Of a DNA stretch of 64,000 nt, positions 14,343 to 19,001 are shown piece by piece. Source of the stretch: Cyanobium sp. PLM2.Bin73 (GTDB taxonomy: Bacteria > Cyanobacteriota > Cyanobacteriia > PCC-6307 > Cyanobiaceae). The notes below the pieces were generated by a model. The model did no database searches and had not been told where the DNA came from. It saw only the letters and a program-made list of their open reading frames with translations. Each line of letters starts with the position of its first letter. Positions within the stretch are counted from its first letter, which is position 1. Location: NCBI GenBank assembly GCA_007694915.1, contig REEV01000066.1, positions 1-64,000 on the forward strand, read 5' to 3'. The position numbers and the translations under genes are program-made.

Positions 14343-16976
14343 GTGCAACGACCCGCGATGAGCACCACCACCTTTCTCGCCGACTACCGCGCAGCCGCCG
14401 CCGAACGGGAGGCCCTGGACGTGCCGCCCCTGCCGCTCACCGCCGGACAGACCGCCGCCCTGACCGAGCTGCTGGCGGCACCCCCGGCCGGCGAGGAGGC
14501 CGTGCTGCTGCACCTGCTGAGCGAGCGCATCCCCCCCGGTGTGGATGAGGCGGCCTACGTGAAGGCCAGCTGGCTGCTGGCGGTGGCCAAGGGGGAGACC
14601 ACCAGCCCCCTGGTGGGCGGCCTGGAGGCGGTGCGGCTGCTGGCCACCATGATCGGCGGCTACAACGTGGGCGCGCTGATCGAGCTGCTCGGCAGCGCCG
14701 ACACCGCCATTGCCGAGGCGGCCGCCACCGGGCTCAGCCGCACCGTGCTGGTGTACGACGCCTACCACGACGTGCTCGAGCTGGCGGAATCCAACCCCTG
14801 GGCCCAGCGGGTGGTGGACAGCTGGGCTGCGGGCGAGTGGTTCACCGCCCGGCCGGAGATGGCCGAGGAGATCACCGTGACGGTGTTCAAGGTGGAGGGG
14901 GAGACCAACACCGACGACCTCTCCCCCGCCACCCACGCCACCACCCGGCCCGACATCCCCCTGCACGCCATGGCGATGCTGGAAACCCGCATGCCGGGCG
15001 GGCTGGAGCTGATCGCCGAGCTCAAGGGCAAGGGCCACCCGCTGGCCTACGTGGGCGATGTGGTGGGCACCGGCAGTTCCCGCAAATCCGCCATCAACTC
15101 GGTGCTCTGGCACATCGGCACCGACATCCCCCACGTGCCCAACAAGCGCAGCGGCGGCGTAATCCTGGGGGGCAAGATCGCGCCGATCTTCTTCAACACC
15201 GCCGAAGACTCCGGCGCCCTGCCGATCGAGTGCGACGTCAGCGCCCTCAGCAGCGGCGATGTGATCACGATCCGCCCCCGAGCCGGCACCATCGAGCGCG
15301 CCGCCGGCGAGCCGAACGCCGGCGAGATCGTGGCCCGCTTCGAGCTCAAGCCCAGCACCATCGCCGATGAAGTGCGCGCCGGCGGCCGCATCCCGCTGAT
15401 GATCGGCCGCGCCCTCACCGACAAAGTGCGTGCCCAGCTGGGCCTGCCCTCCTCGGAGCTGTTCATCCGCCCCACCCCGCCGGCCGACACCGGCAAGGGC
15501 TACACCCTGGCCCAGAAGATGGTGGGCAAGGCCTGCGGCCTCGCGGGCGTGCGCCCCGGCACCAGCTGCGAGCCGTTGATGACCACCGTGGGCTCCCAGG
15601 ACACCACCGGGCCGATGACCCGCGACGAGATGAAGGAGCTGGCCTGCCTGGGCTTCTCAGCCGATCTGGTGATGCAGAGCTTCTGCCACACCGCCGCCTA
15701 CCCCAAGCCTGTGGATCTCAAGACCCACGCCGAGCTGCCCGACTTCATGGCCTCGCGCGGCGGCGTGGCCCTGCGCCCCGGCGACGGCATCATCCACAGC
15801 TGGCTCAACCGCATGCTGCTGCCCGACACTGTGGGCACCGGCGGCGACAGCCACACCCGCTTCCCCCTGGGCATCTCCTTCCCGGGCGGCTCGGGGCTGG
15901 TGGCCTTCGCCGCCGCCATCGGCGCCATGCCGCTGGACATGCCGGAATCGGTGCTGGTGAAATTCTCCGGCTCCCTGCAGCCGGGCGTCACCCTGCGCGA
16001 TGTGGTCAACGCCATTCCCTGGGTGGCGATCCAGAAGGGCCTGCTCACGGTGGCCAAGGAGGGCAAGAAGAACGTCTTCAACGGCCGCATCATGGAGATC
16101 GAGGGGCTGCCCGATCTCAAGCTGGAGCAGGCCTTCGAGCTCACCGACGCCACCGCCGAACGCTCCTGTGCCGGCTGCACGATCAAGCTCAGCGTGGACA
16201 CGGTGAGCGAATACCTGCGCAGCAACGTGGCCCTGCTCAGGAACATGATCGCCCGCGGCTACGGCGATGCCCGCACCCTGGCGCGGCGCATCCAGGTGAT
16301 GGAGGCCTGGCTGGCCAACCCGCAGCTGATGGAGGCCGACGCCGACGCCGAGTACGCCGAGATCATCGAGATCAACCTCGATGAGATCCGCGAGCCGATC
16401 CTGGCCTGCCCCAACGACCCCGACAACGTGAAAATGCTCAGCGAGGTGGCCGGCGACCGCATCGATGAGGTGTTCATCGGCTCCTGCATGACCAACATCG
16501 GCCACTACCGGGCCGCCGCCAACGTGCTCAAGGACCAGGGCGAGAACGCCGCCCGCCTGTGGGTGTGTCCGCCCACCCGCATGGACGAGGAGAAGCTCAA
16601 GGAGGAGGGCTACTACGCGATCTTCGAGGCCACCGGCGCCCGCATGGAGATGCCCGGCTGCTCGCTGTGCATGGGCAACCAGGCCCGGGTGGAGGACGAC
16701 ACCACCGTGTTCTCCACCAGCACCCGCAACTTCAACAACCGCCTCGGCAACGGCGCCCAGGTGTACCTGGGCAGCGCCGAGCTGGCGGCTGTCTGCGCCC
16801 AGCTGGGCCGTATCCCCAGCCAGCAGGAGTATCTGGCCATCGCCGCAGAGAAGATCGATCCCTACGGAGACGAGCTCTACCGCTACCTCAACTTCGACCA
16901 GATCGAGGGCTTCGAGGACAGCGGCCGGGTGCTGAGCGCCGAGGAGGAGGCCCGGATGCTGGCGGAGGTGAGCTGA
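14343..16976 (+). CDS. acnB: Aconitate hydratase B
   Basis: Interconverts citrate and isocitrate with a [4Fe-4S] cluster. It is 877 residues long, close to the usual 865. The N-terminal HEAT-like domain ends near residue 160. The swivel domain has DDLSPATHA and [17 protein letters not shown]. Cluster ligands are the Cys in [11 protein letters not shown] and the pair in [13 protein letters not shown] 14343 has GGAGG four bases upstream; ATG 14358 is too far from that site (19 bases) but is an alternative start. A ClC gene follows within 7 bases and may be co-transcribed. Confidence 0.97.
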
Positions 16977-16983
16977 GACCGGG

Positions 16984-18456
16984 GTGGTCAGCAAGGCCGG
17001 CGTCACCAGCAGACACGACGAATGGCTGCAGCTGCGGGCCATCCGCCAGCTGCTCCAGCAGCGCGGCGTGGGGGTGGTGCTGGGCCTGGCCCTCACCGGC
17101 CTGGCGGTGGCCACCACCGTGCTGGTGTTCACCCTCGGCATTGACGCCCTGGGCAGCTGGCGCATCCGCAGCCGGGAGCACGCTCCGGAGTGGCTGATGC
17201 TTCCCGCCATCGGCGCCGGCGGCGGCCTGCTGGCCGGCCTGCTGATCCAGACCCTGGCGCCGGCGGCCTCCGGGGCCGGTATCACCCAGGTGATGCTGTT
17301 TCTGCGCAAGCGGGGCGTGCCGATCGGCCTGCGCATCGCTTTGGTGAAACTGGTGGCCGGCATCCTGGCCATCGGCAGCGGCTTCCCCCTCGGCCCTTCC
17401 GGCCCCGCCATCCAGATGGGCAGCTCCATGGGCTGGAGCCTGGGCCGGCTGCTGCAGGCGCCGCGGCCGTTCGTGCGCCTGCTGGTGGCTGCCGGCGGCG
17501 GCGCCGGCATCACGGCCGTGTTCAGCGCCCCGATCGCCGGCTTCTTCTACACCCTGGAAGCGCTGCTGCGCGGCGGCCGGCCGGTGGTGATGCTGATCGT
17601 GCTCACGCTCACCTTCTGGACCGACATCTGGGCCGATCTGCTGGGGCTGGCCGGCCTGGGGATGGACAGCACGAGTCTGATCGTGAGCGGCGAACTGCAG
17701 CTCAAGCGCGCGGTCTTCGTGTACGTGCAGGTGCTGCCGATCGATCTGCTGCTGCTGTTCGGCCTGGGCGGGCTGGTGGCCGTGGCGGGAGAGGCCTACT
17801 GCCGTTTTCTGCTCAGCCTGCAGCGGCTCAGCAACCGCTGGCACAGTTCCCTGGCCCTGAAGCTGACCGTGGCCGGCGCCCTGCTGGGGCTGGTGGATGC
17901 CTTCCTGCCCGAGATCTTCATCAACAACGCCGGCGTGCGCCTGGCGGTGGCCAGCGGCGAGGTGGACGTGGCCATGGCCATCAGCGTCACCGTGGTGCTG
18001 TTCGTCACCACCGCCCTGGCCGCGGCGGTGGGGGCGCCCGGGGGGCTGTTCGCACCCATGCTCAGCCTCGGCGGCGCCCTCGGCCTGGTGGCGGTGCAGC
18101 TGGTGGAGCTGGTGGGCATCAAGGCCCCCAACACCGCGGTGTTCGCCGGCATGGGGGCTTTTCTCACCGCCACCGCCCGCACACCGATCACCGCCCTGTT
18201 TCTGGTGTTCGCCCTCAGCAAGCAGTGGCTGCTGCTCAAGCCTGTGCTGAGCGCCTGCCTGGGCAGCTTCCTGGTGGCGCGGCTGCTGGCCAGCGAGTCG
18301 CTATTCGAGCGGCTGATCCAGCTGGCGCCCCCCGGCCATCAGGGCTGGGCCGGCGCAGCCCCCACTCCCGATCCGGCGCCCAGCTCGGTGCCGCTGCGGC
18401 CACGGCTGGGGGATGCCAACGCCGCTGGAGCAGGCCCCGCGAAGGGTCAGGCCTGA
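16984..18456 (+). CDS. ClC-family anion channel/transporter lacking gating glutamates
   Basis: A 490-residue membrane protein with the full ClC helix set. The selectivity loop reads ASGAGITQV. The GxGxP loop that normally holds the gating Glu reads GPSGP, with Ser139 in its place. The internal proton-path Glu pair after FSAPIAGFFYTLEALL keeps only the first Glu (Glu192); Ala193 replaces the second. In E. coli ClC the equivalents are Glu148 and Glu203. Loss of both predicts passive anion conduction rather than H+/Cl- exchange. GPxGP resembles the plant plastid CLC-e/f branch. The C-terminal tail lacks CBS domains. GTG start, 7 bases after acnB. Confidence 0.9.
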   Translation: MVSKAGVTSRHDEWLQLRAIRQLLQQRGVGVVLGLALTGLAVATTVLVFTLGIDALGSWRIRSREHAPEWLMLPAIGAGGGLLAGLLIQTLAPAASGAGITQVMLFLRKRGVPIGLRIALVKLVAGILAIGSGFPLGPSGPAIQMGSSMGWSLGRLLQAPRPFVRLLVAAGGGAGITAVFSAPIAGFFYTLEALLRGGRPVVMLIVLTLTFWTDIWADLLGLAGLGMDSTSLIVSGELQLKRAVFVYVQVLPIDLLLLFGLGGLVAVAGEAYCRFLLSLQRLSNRWHSSLALKLTVAGALLGLVDAFLPEIFINNAGVRLAVASGEVDVAMAISVTVVLFVTTALAAAVGAPGGLFAPMLSLGGALGLVAVQLVELVGIKAPNTAVFAGMGAFLTATARTPITALFLVFALSKQWLLLKPVLSACLGSFLVARLLASESLFERLIQLAPPGHQGWAGAAPTPDPAPSSVPLRPRLGDANAAGAGPAKGQA

Positions 18457-18533
18457 AGGGGCGGGCGGGCCCCCGGCCATGGGCAGCCCTGGTATCCAGG
18501 GCTACATTACCTACGATCTAATCAAGCATCGTG

Positions 18534-19001
18534 ATGACTGCACAACACCCCCGCCGCTGGCGCAGCGGCCGCTTTATCGGCGCCGCCATGGCTCTGACGG
18601 TGGCCGGTGGGCTCACCCTCAGTGGCTGCCAGCAGGCCAAGCAGACGGTGGACGATGCCGCCACCGGTGTGGGCGATGCCGCCCAGGACGCCGCCACGGC
18701 CACCGGCCAGGCCGCCCTGACCGCGGCTGTCAATCCCGTCCTCGATCAGCTCAAGAAAGGCCAGGCACAGGTGGAGGACGGCAATCTCGAAACCGCCGCG
18801 GTCACCATGGGCGGCTTCAAGTCGCTCTGGGACCGCTCCGCCCCGGTGATCCGCCCCCTGGCCGGTGACAAGTGGCCCGGGATTGAGTCGGCCGCCAACA
18901 GCGTGGTCAGCACCTTCGACGGCGGCACTCCGGCAGCGGGTGCCGCCAGCTCGGCGATCAGCGGCCTCATCGGTCCCCTCAGCGGCCTGATCGGTCAGTA
19001 G
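18534..19001 (+). CDS. Small lipoprotein of unknown function
   Basis: A 155-residue protein. A basic n-region and hydrophobic stretch end in the lipobox LSGC with lipidated Cys32, so it is exported and membrane-anchored. The mature part starts with an Ala/Asp/Thr-rich helix (VDDAATGVGDAAQDAATATGQ). It continues with a QAQVEDGNLETAAVTMGGFKSLWDRSAPVIRPLAG segment, which gives predicted amphipathic helices, and ends in a Gly/Ser/Ile-rich tail. No named domain is recognised. GTG 18531 is an alternative start. An AT-richer promoter-like stretch precedes it (18501-18525). Confidence 0.75.
   Translation: MTAQHPRRWRSGRFIGAAMALTVAGGLTLSGCQQAKQTVDDAATGVGDAAQDAATATGQAALTAAVNPVLDQLKKGQAQVEDGNLETAAVTMGGFKSLWDRSAPVIRPLAGDKWPGIESAANSVVSTFDGGTPAAGAASSAISGLIGPLSGLIGQ

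Follow-up and report, generated by a model that had tools for sequence, protein, structure and literature searches.

The window examined here is a 64,000-nucleotide stretch of one contig (G000:C125) from a 2.72-Mb genome whose closest named relatives are Cyanobium. It encodes a CLC-family protein that appears to lack two glutamates linked to proton coupling. This raises the question as to whether the substitutions are real, how they arose, and whether the protein would still exchange anions for protons. The gene lies between two other open reading frames on the same strand:

14343..16976, + strand: acnB (aconitate hydratase), the upstream neighbour of the CLC gene (ORF list)
16984..18456, + strand: CLC-family anion transport protein of 490 aa with a GTG start (ORF, translation, Pfam and phmmer)
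18531..19001, + strand: small lipoprotein-like ORF downstream of the CLC gene (ORF list)

We take the first of these to be acnB, and the CLC gene starts 7 bp downstream of its stop. The CLC product matches PF00654 over the entire profile (protein residues 80-433 against profile positions 1-346 of 346, E=3.9e-56, 191 bits), and this was the only Pfam family detected in it. Its residues 18-445 align to E. coli ClcA in phmmer with E about 1e-28, compared with about 1e-4 for matches to CLC-F. The translation contains GSGFPLGPSGPAIQMG and AGFFYTLEALLR. An AlphaFold2 run of the protein together with three relatives (four sequences) returned a mean pLDDT of 32.9 and a pTM of 0.23, and scanning positions 16700-18700 for promoters and terminators found none.

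To number pore residues, we used E. coli ClcA (ClC-ec1, here ec1; K-12 locus L108) as the reference. The alignment places the following residues of the window protein:

17275..17277, + strand: Ala98 at ec1 Ser107 (Ser_cen, or SerC), codon GCC
17398..17400, + strand: Ser139 at ec1 Glu148 (Glu_ex, the gating glutamate), within GPSGP, codon TCC
17557..17559, + strand: Glu192 at ec1 Glu202, next to Glu_in, kept
17560..17562, + strand: Ala193 at ec1 Glu203 (Glu_in, the proton glutamate), codon GCG
18022..18024, + strand: Ala347 at the ec1 Phe348 inner-barrier position
18046..18051, + strand: Leu355-Phe356 at ec1 Ile356-Phe357, transporter-like
18304..18306, + strand: Phe441 at ec1 Tyr445 (Tyr_cen, or TyrC, the inner gate), codon TTC in all 18 orthologs that share the gating-site serine

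The first-pass annotation had put Ser139 at the gating glutamate and Ala193 at the inner proton glutamate, and both placements hold: ec1 E148 aligns with S139 (TCC) and E203 with A193 (GCG). A local shift of the alignment could in principle hide a conserved glutamate, but the register is firm at both sites. We checked 73 orthologs, comprising all 18 with Ser at position 148 (S-type) and 55 of the 108 with Glu there (E-type), and found the 12 columns on each side of both sites free of gap cells. Flank identity to the Glu-bearing orthologs averages 78% at Glu_ex and 59% at Glu_in, with Glu occupying exactly these columns. The adjacent Glu192 (ec1 E202) is kept in 73/73 (18/18 S-type and 55/55 sampled E-type). 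Because Ser recurs in 18 and Ala in 5 of 126 orthologs, neither residue is a lone sequencing error. The earlier annotation had overlooked Ala98 (S107), Phe441 (Y445) and Ala347 (F348). The register at Tyr445 is the least firmly anchored of these sites, with 38 gap cells within 12 columns (73 rows) and a mean flank identity of 36%. At the ec1 F190 position, the window protein still has a bulky or aromatic residue. None of its acidic residues lies at or beside the Glu_ex site; D305 (ec1 306) is the sole acid that is fixed in 18/18 S-type orthologs and missing from the E-type sample of 55, and a long stretch of sequence separates it from Glu_ex. As aligned, then, the joint absence of the Glu_ex, Glu_in, Ser_cen and Tyr_cen side chains is a real and unusual natural variant.

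We next consider where such proteins occur. Our label Cyanobiaceae denotes family code f1, after its named Cyanobium and Synechococcus members; NCBI places ATX 6A2 in Prochlorococcaceae, and SynAce01, which we take to be an Ace Lake isolate, in Synechococcaceae. An ortholog is present in 129 of 201 family genomes (18 Ser-type, 109 Glu-type and 2 partial) and absent from 72. The best match outside the family, across 386 genomes of the phylum, has E=2.6e-65 at 37% identity, compared with 2.1e-97 for the weakest near-full-length ortholog (G385, clipped by a contig end), and therefore the acnB-linked clade appears confined to Cyanobiaceae. Two shorter ortholog pieces, from G346 and G374, score 4e-53 and 1e-50; the former (L170) has Phe at 445 and does not cover 148. 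Identity to the window protein is 42-55% for E-type orthologs and 42-96% for relatives overall. The versions in L006 and L005 are 92-96% identical to it, L005 being the nearest named relative at 96%.

Both glutamates are kept in 108 of the 126 aligned orthologs, and Tyr445 in 107/107 of the E-type sequences that are readable there. The other 18 all combine Ser at Glu_ex with Phe at Tyr445. Within these, Ala replaces Glu_in in five, and three of those five have Ala at Ser107 too, whereas SynAce01 (L007) is an S-type representative that retains Glu_in. Ala at Ser107 also appears in 18 E-type rows, such that Ser107 is missing from 18/108 E-type and 3/18 S-type orthologs. The ec1 F348 position is small throughout the clade (126/126 rows: Ala in 122, Thr in 2 and Ser in 2), and no variation is seen among the 18 S-type proteins in PSGP, GLF or the two slide Phe residues. 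Rows left out of these counts were duplicates (L005, L006, L007 and L097), the genome's own copies (L002 and L038), L003, L004 and L188, and fragments of the clade (L141, L170 and L171) or of a paralog (L105, L178 and L180), while L108 serves as ec1. One of these fragments, L141 (G380), is an E-type ortholog broken by a TAG.

The locus itself is conserved. acnB lies upstream of the CLC gene in 18/18 S-type and 98/108 E-type loci, and the remaining 10 E-type loci have no acnB match within the available flank. In the 1.7-Mb genome G107 (L187), the gene order is aroF, acnB, clc, purU. The downstream ORF at 18531-19001 (+) has an LSGC lipobox by eye and no Pfam family above the cut-off. It is matched in 34/201 family genomes, namely 17/18 S-type, 17/72 CLC-less and 0/109 E-type, a distribution that was cross-read by eye against the CLC types. 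We considered this ORF as a dedicated partner of S-type CLCs and rejected the idea, since 17 of the 34 genomes with a match have no such CLC; it is a lineage marker rather than CLC-specific.

We built a tree from 91 sequences after masking the four trait columns. It comprised the 18 S-type sequences, 55 of 108 E-type (no genus code contributing more than two), 8 of the 16 paralogs, 9 of the 31 other cyanobacterial CLCs and ec1, with L001 left out; the method was a quick one and gave warnings on long outgroup branches. All 18 S-type rows form a single group (SH-aLRT 96), within which the Ala203 group has support of 100. The tree requires one change each at 148, 445 and 203, and three at 107. 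The Glu-to-Ser change falls on one branch inside a clade made up of Cyanobiaceae only and, because 16/16 paralogs have Glu at 148, it is polarised as a loss. Going from Glu to Ser takes two or more base substitutions, and the 18 S-type genes encode this Ser by TCC, TCA or TCG. With one change at Glu_ex and one at Tyr, the pairing of the two amounts to a single event and not a statistical rule. A mechanistic link is plausible: in simulations, protonated Glu_ex hydrogen-bonds Y445 (PMC7274781), which could explain the joint loss. Against a strict link, Phe accompanies Glu_ex in 12/16 paralogs, and Tyr is kept in 23/23 CLCs with Gln at the gating position.

These observations suggest an order of events. 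The ancestor would have been an acnB-linked picocyanobacterial CLC, probably a Cl-/H+ exchanger with Glu_ex, Glu_in and Tyr. Glu_ex would then have become Ser and the inner-gate Tyr Phe on a first branch, Glu_in Ala on a nested branch, and Ser_cen Ala in the window's own group. Each step has living representatives: E/E/Y, S/E/F, S/A/F, and S/A/F minus Ser_cen.

What would the end product do? Mutation of either glutamate in the E. coli protein had been held to uncouple H+ exchange. For Glu_ex this agrees with published work, as ec1 E148A abolishes H+ transport and leaves Cl- throughput at about a quarter of wild type (PMC6019066), and H+ signals of E148Q resemble those of control vesicles (PMC7253180). 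For Glu_in it does not: E203A still pumps H+, albeit with degraded stoichiometry, and a titratable Glu_in is unnecessary for pumping (PMC7253180). Thus, Ala193 alone would not prove uncoupling, and the loss of Glu_in is supportive rather than decisive. The remaining positions are informative as well. With S107G, Cl- flux is doubled and coupling falls three-fold; when F348A is combined with it, almost no coupled H+ transport is left, and the triple mutant S107G/F348A/E148A passes Cl- about 25-fold faster than E148A (PMC6019066). E148A/Y445S is channel-like, at about 14,000 per second in a D417C background (PMC4769167), and E148A/Y445A is described as a high-turnover mutant (PMC3755343).

Given the trimming at S107, E148 and F348 together with Phe at 445, we infer an H+-uncoupled anion path. 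Its outer gate would be permanently missing and its inner constriction loosened, with the small residue at the F348 position common to the whole clade, and it would let Cl- or some other small anion through passively, with no exchange for H+. By analogy with the ec1 mutants, the window CLC is thus probably a route for Cl- that is uncoupled from H+ in salt-tolerant picocyanobacteria; that it is uncoupled, how fast it conducts, which anion it carries and in which direction, and what it does for the cell are all inferred here.

Two residues speak against this explanation, namely Phe rather than a small residue at Tyr445, and Leu at ec1 I356. The CLC-K channel pattern has small or polar residues at both ec1 348 and 356 (PMC6019066); the window protein has a small residue at the first (Ala) and a large one at the second (Leu). 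Phe at 445 and Leu at 356 are both bulky, and the inner barrier may therefore remain mostly shut. In a narrower version of the same explanation, Phe441 and Leu355 keep the inner barrier and the protein is a slow uncoupled uniporter rather than a channel, with low turnover as in ec1 E148A. That mutant is uncoupled, carries Cl- at about a quarter of the wild-type rate and remains conformation-dependent (PMC6019066, PMC4769167). Weighing on the other side, small residues occupy both the S107 and the F348 position, the kind of trimming that gives about 25-fold on E148A in ec1 (PMC6019066). We regard the slow uniporter as a serious contender, though at somewhat short of even chances.

The presence of the gene tends to coincide with that of ggpS, a salt-acclimation gene, which we scored by TIGR02398 matches above the cut-off. 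ggpS is present in 15/18 S-type genomes (all but G319, G352 and G406), 53/109 E-type and 8/72 CLC-less genomes. CLC presence (129 genomes, including partial) or absence (72) is associated with ggpS at Fisher p=1.5e-9, uncorrected for kinship. The three S-type exceptions and the E-type share of under half count against a salt-linked role. Within the window's genus group, ggpS occurs in 8/8 genomes with the CLC and 0/2 without. ATX 6A2 (L006) is one of two among 67 freshwater isolates that carry the ggpSP cluster (PMC9361551). L005 bears the sample label CSSed, which is used for bins from Cock Soda Lake, a soda lake of pH 9.9-10 with brine measured at pH 9.9 and 55 g/L salt; its link to that lake rests on the label, and the passages naming CSSed bins make no mention of Cyanobium (PMC6704655). 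A putative chloride channel gene, which may be the CLC studied here, the paralog or another gene, is described as common to Synechococcus subcluster 5.2 (PMC7522525). Habitat information covers three named relatives, and an alkaline setting would extend to the other genomes by extrapolation. We consider the host to be a salt-tolerant, perhaps alkaline-lake, Cyanobium.

Such a habitat could account for the loss of coupling. By our thermodynamic reasoning, an exchanger working at 2:1 brings cytoplasmic Cl- under its passive level only with an inward proton-motive force. An external pH near 10 shrinks or removes this benefit, and so coupling could go at little cost: the plasma membrane may have little inward proton-motive force there, Cl- exclusion via H+ entry would gain little, and cytoplasmic Cl- would be set by the membrane potential alone. 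More tentatively, a CLC anion channel may have evolved from a Cl-/H+ exchanger at this one locus, with saline-alkaline conditions as the driver. It would then parallel, in nature, what S107G/F348A/E148A and the E148A/Y445 channels achieve by engineering.

The main rival to an uncoupled pathway is that the S-type gene is decaying, its key residues having drifted under relaxed constraint in a weakly active or inactive protein that is heading to loss. Selection estimates bear on this directly. We computed dN/dS by the Nei-Gojobori method, with parts of acnB from the same genomes as a control. For clc, dN/dS is 0.02-0.13 in E-type (8 pairs), 0.09-0.23 in other S-type (5 pairs) and 0.18-0.36 in the Ala203 group (6 pairs), a climb that favours decay. 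The corresponding acnB values are 0.017-0.055 (two pairs), 0.055-0.13 and 0.12-0.20. The clc value lies above that of acnB in 11/11 S-type pairs, at most about 2.4-fold and in one case barely; in the two E-type pairs, clc and acnB give 0.042 versus 0.055 and 0.020 versus 0.017.

Gene loss in related genomes also fits decay. We surveyed ten stretches from genomes without an acnB-linked CLC. In five of these (L190, L193, L194, L196 and L197), about 120-170 bp separate the acnB match from the lipoprotein match and no CLC match falls between them, L190 having a partial acnB in the stretch plus two radical-SAM matches. L198 keeps a CLC relic between acnB and the lipoprotein ORF, three further stretches show 0.7-1.3 kb gaps devoid of CLC matches, and no acnB was seen in L191. 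The acnB-linked CLC has thus been lost in place repeatedly.

Despite these signs, the S-type genes look maintained. A single open frame of 468-504 residues spans the domain in 18/18, and the stops inside the matches of G319, G356, G406 and G419 fall outside those frames. No S-type pair exceeds a dN/dS of 0.36. The motifs PSGP and GLF and both slide Phe positions do not vary, and Ser is kept despite codon change. In the window's genus group, moreover, the CLC accompanies ggpS in every genome that has it and is missing from both that do not. The window clc is still under purifying selection, with constraint relaxed on the S-type branch, and we consider decay unlikely.

A further rival holds that the protein carries an anion other than Cl-, such as nitrate, bicarbonate or fluoride, the lost Ser and Tyr hydroxyls reflecting altered selectivity. 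The hydroxyls of Ser107 and Tyr445 are indeed both gone in the window group, and replacement of Ser107 accompanies nitrate preference in plant CLCs. However, Ser107 is missing in only three of the 18 S-type proteins and yet also in 18 of the 108 E-type, and the window CLC is far nearer to ClcA (about 1e-28) than to CLC-F (about 1e-4). We judge this improbable, to about the same degree as decay. That proton coupling persists through another residue, for example Glu192 (ec1 E202) plus water, is very improbable: pumping can occur without a titratable Glu_in (PMC7253180) and E192 is kept, but no acid lies at or beside Glu_ex, D305 is far off in sequence, and Glu_ex mutants show no H+ transport (PMC7253180, PMC6019066).

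The same genome holds two other CLC sequences, one intact-looking (G000:C6) and one split. The first (L001, 3-1985, - strand) has GPEGP, with the gating Glu kept, Gly at Glu_in and Pro at Ser107; its CBS match falls just below the Pfam cut-off. In keeping the gating Glu and losing the proton Glu it is like AtCLCe as reported (PMC4746265). The second (G000:C80, 12433-12956; L003/L188) is a piece in two frames that covers only profile positions 124-239 and 290-341, and is probably a relic. The ORF preceding it is presumably recJ-like. Elsewhere in the family, a second CLC, 36-39% identical, keeps Glu_ex and Glu_in, with Phe at Tyr445 in 12/16 and Leu at ec1 F357 in 16/16 (L104, L106, L107, L172-L177, L179 and L181-L186). 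Outside the family, Gln stands at the gating Glu in 23 of the 30 loci with top Pfam scores (L011, L012, L015-L018, L020-L029 and L031-L037), a phylum sample biased to high scorers. The motif is GRQGP in those printed, and Glu_in and Tyr are kept. Two of these that were scanned, L011 and L018, have CBS and Usp domains. By sequence, the Gln-type proteins are a natural E148Q group.

The exchanger-to-channel origin of CLCs appears to have been studied mostly through ec1 mutants or distant animal proteins. Here, the forms of a single orthologous bacterial gene range from intact through intermediate to fully stripped, such that each step is measurable and the conversion becomes testable in bacteria. 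It also raises the question as to whether H+-coupled Cl- exclusion is dropped once external pH removes its benefit. TyrC has been stated to be invariant among CLC channels and transporters (PMC6019066); for the S-type sequences, as aligned, this invariance fails. We found no report of a natural prokaryotic CLC without Glu_ex in the literature on CLC residues or picocyanobacterial CLCs, which is weak evidence of absence, as the sources were mostly listings and mostly excluded subscription papers.

How, then, does the window CLC compare with known systems? The acnB-linked E-type CLCs of other Cyanobiaceae are orthologs at the same locus, for which we found no functional characterisation. Unlike S-type proteins, these keep Glu_ex and Glu_in in 108/108 and Tyr in 107/107 readable sequences. 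Sll0855 of Synechocystis (PDB 3nd0; E=2.3e-25) is likewise a cyanobacterial CLC of similar length (466 residues). Sll0855 is a slow coupled antiporter with both glutamates. The CLC-F fluoride/proton antiporters are more distant from the window CLC than ClcA is.

Plant CLC-e and CLC-f are, like the window protein, bacterial-like CLCs of photosynthetic organisms (PMC3928508). The first-pass annotation had suggested that a cyanobacterial CLC lacking both glutamates bears on the origin of plastid CLC-e, an assumption that our results do not support. AtCLCe is reported to have the gating glutamate and to lack the proton glutamate only (PMC4746265), AtCLCf retains Glu247 and is a reported Cl-/H+ antiporter (PMC11087495), and the Glu-to-Ser change is confined to one Cyanobiaceae branch. 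Because both plant proteins keep the gating Glu, the window CLC is a poor model for CLC-e. We rejected a CLC-e ancestry on these published residue patterns, which set the proteins apart, and not by a tree; the host or symbiont origin of CLCe itself has been left unsettled (PMC3928508).

The CLC-K kidney channels share with the window CLC a natural replacement of Glu_ex, by Val instead of Ser, and this Val is said to make CLC-K inert to H+ transfer (PMC6019066). They differ from it in that the window protein is bacterial, has PF00654 only and carries Phe at TyrC; in CLC-K, the inner barrier is lowered mainly by a reoriented SerC (PMC6019066). Finally, the window CLC belongs to the same family as ClC-ec1 but, unlike that type of antiporter, is without the Glu_ex, Glu_in, Ser_cen and Tyr_cen side chains, and its changed positions match those of engineered uncoupled or channel-like mutants. 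In contrast to those mutants, it is natural: Glu_ex is replaced by Ser instead of Ala, Tyr445 by Phe instead of Ala or Ser, and I356 by Leu, and Glu_in is lost.
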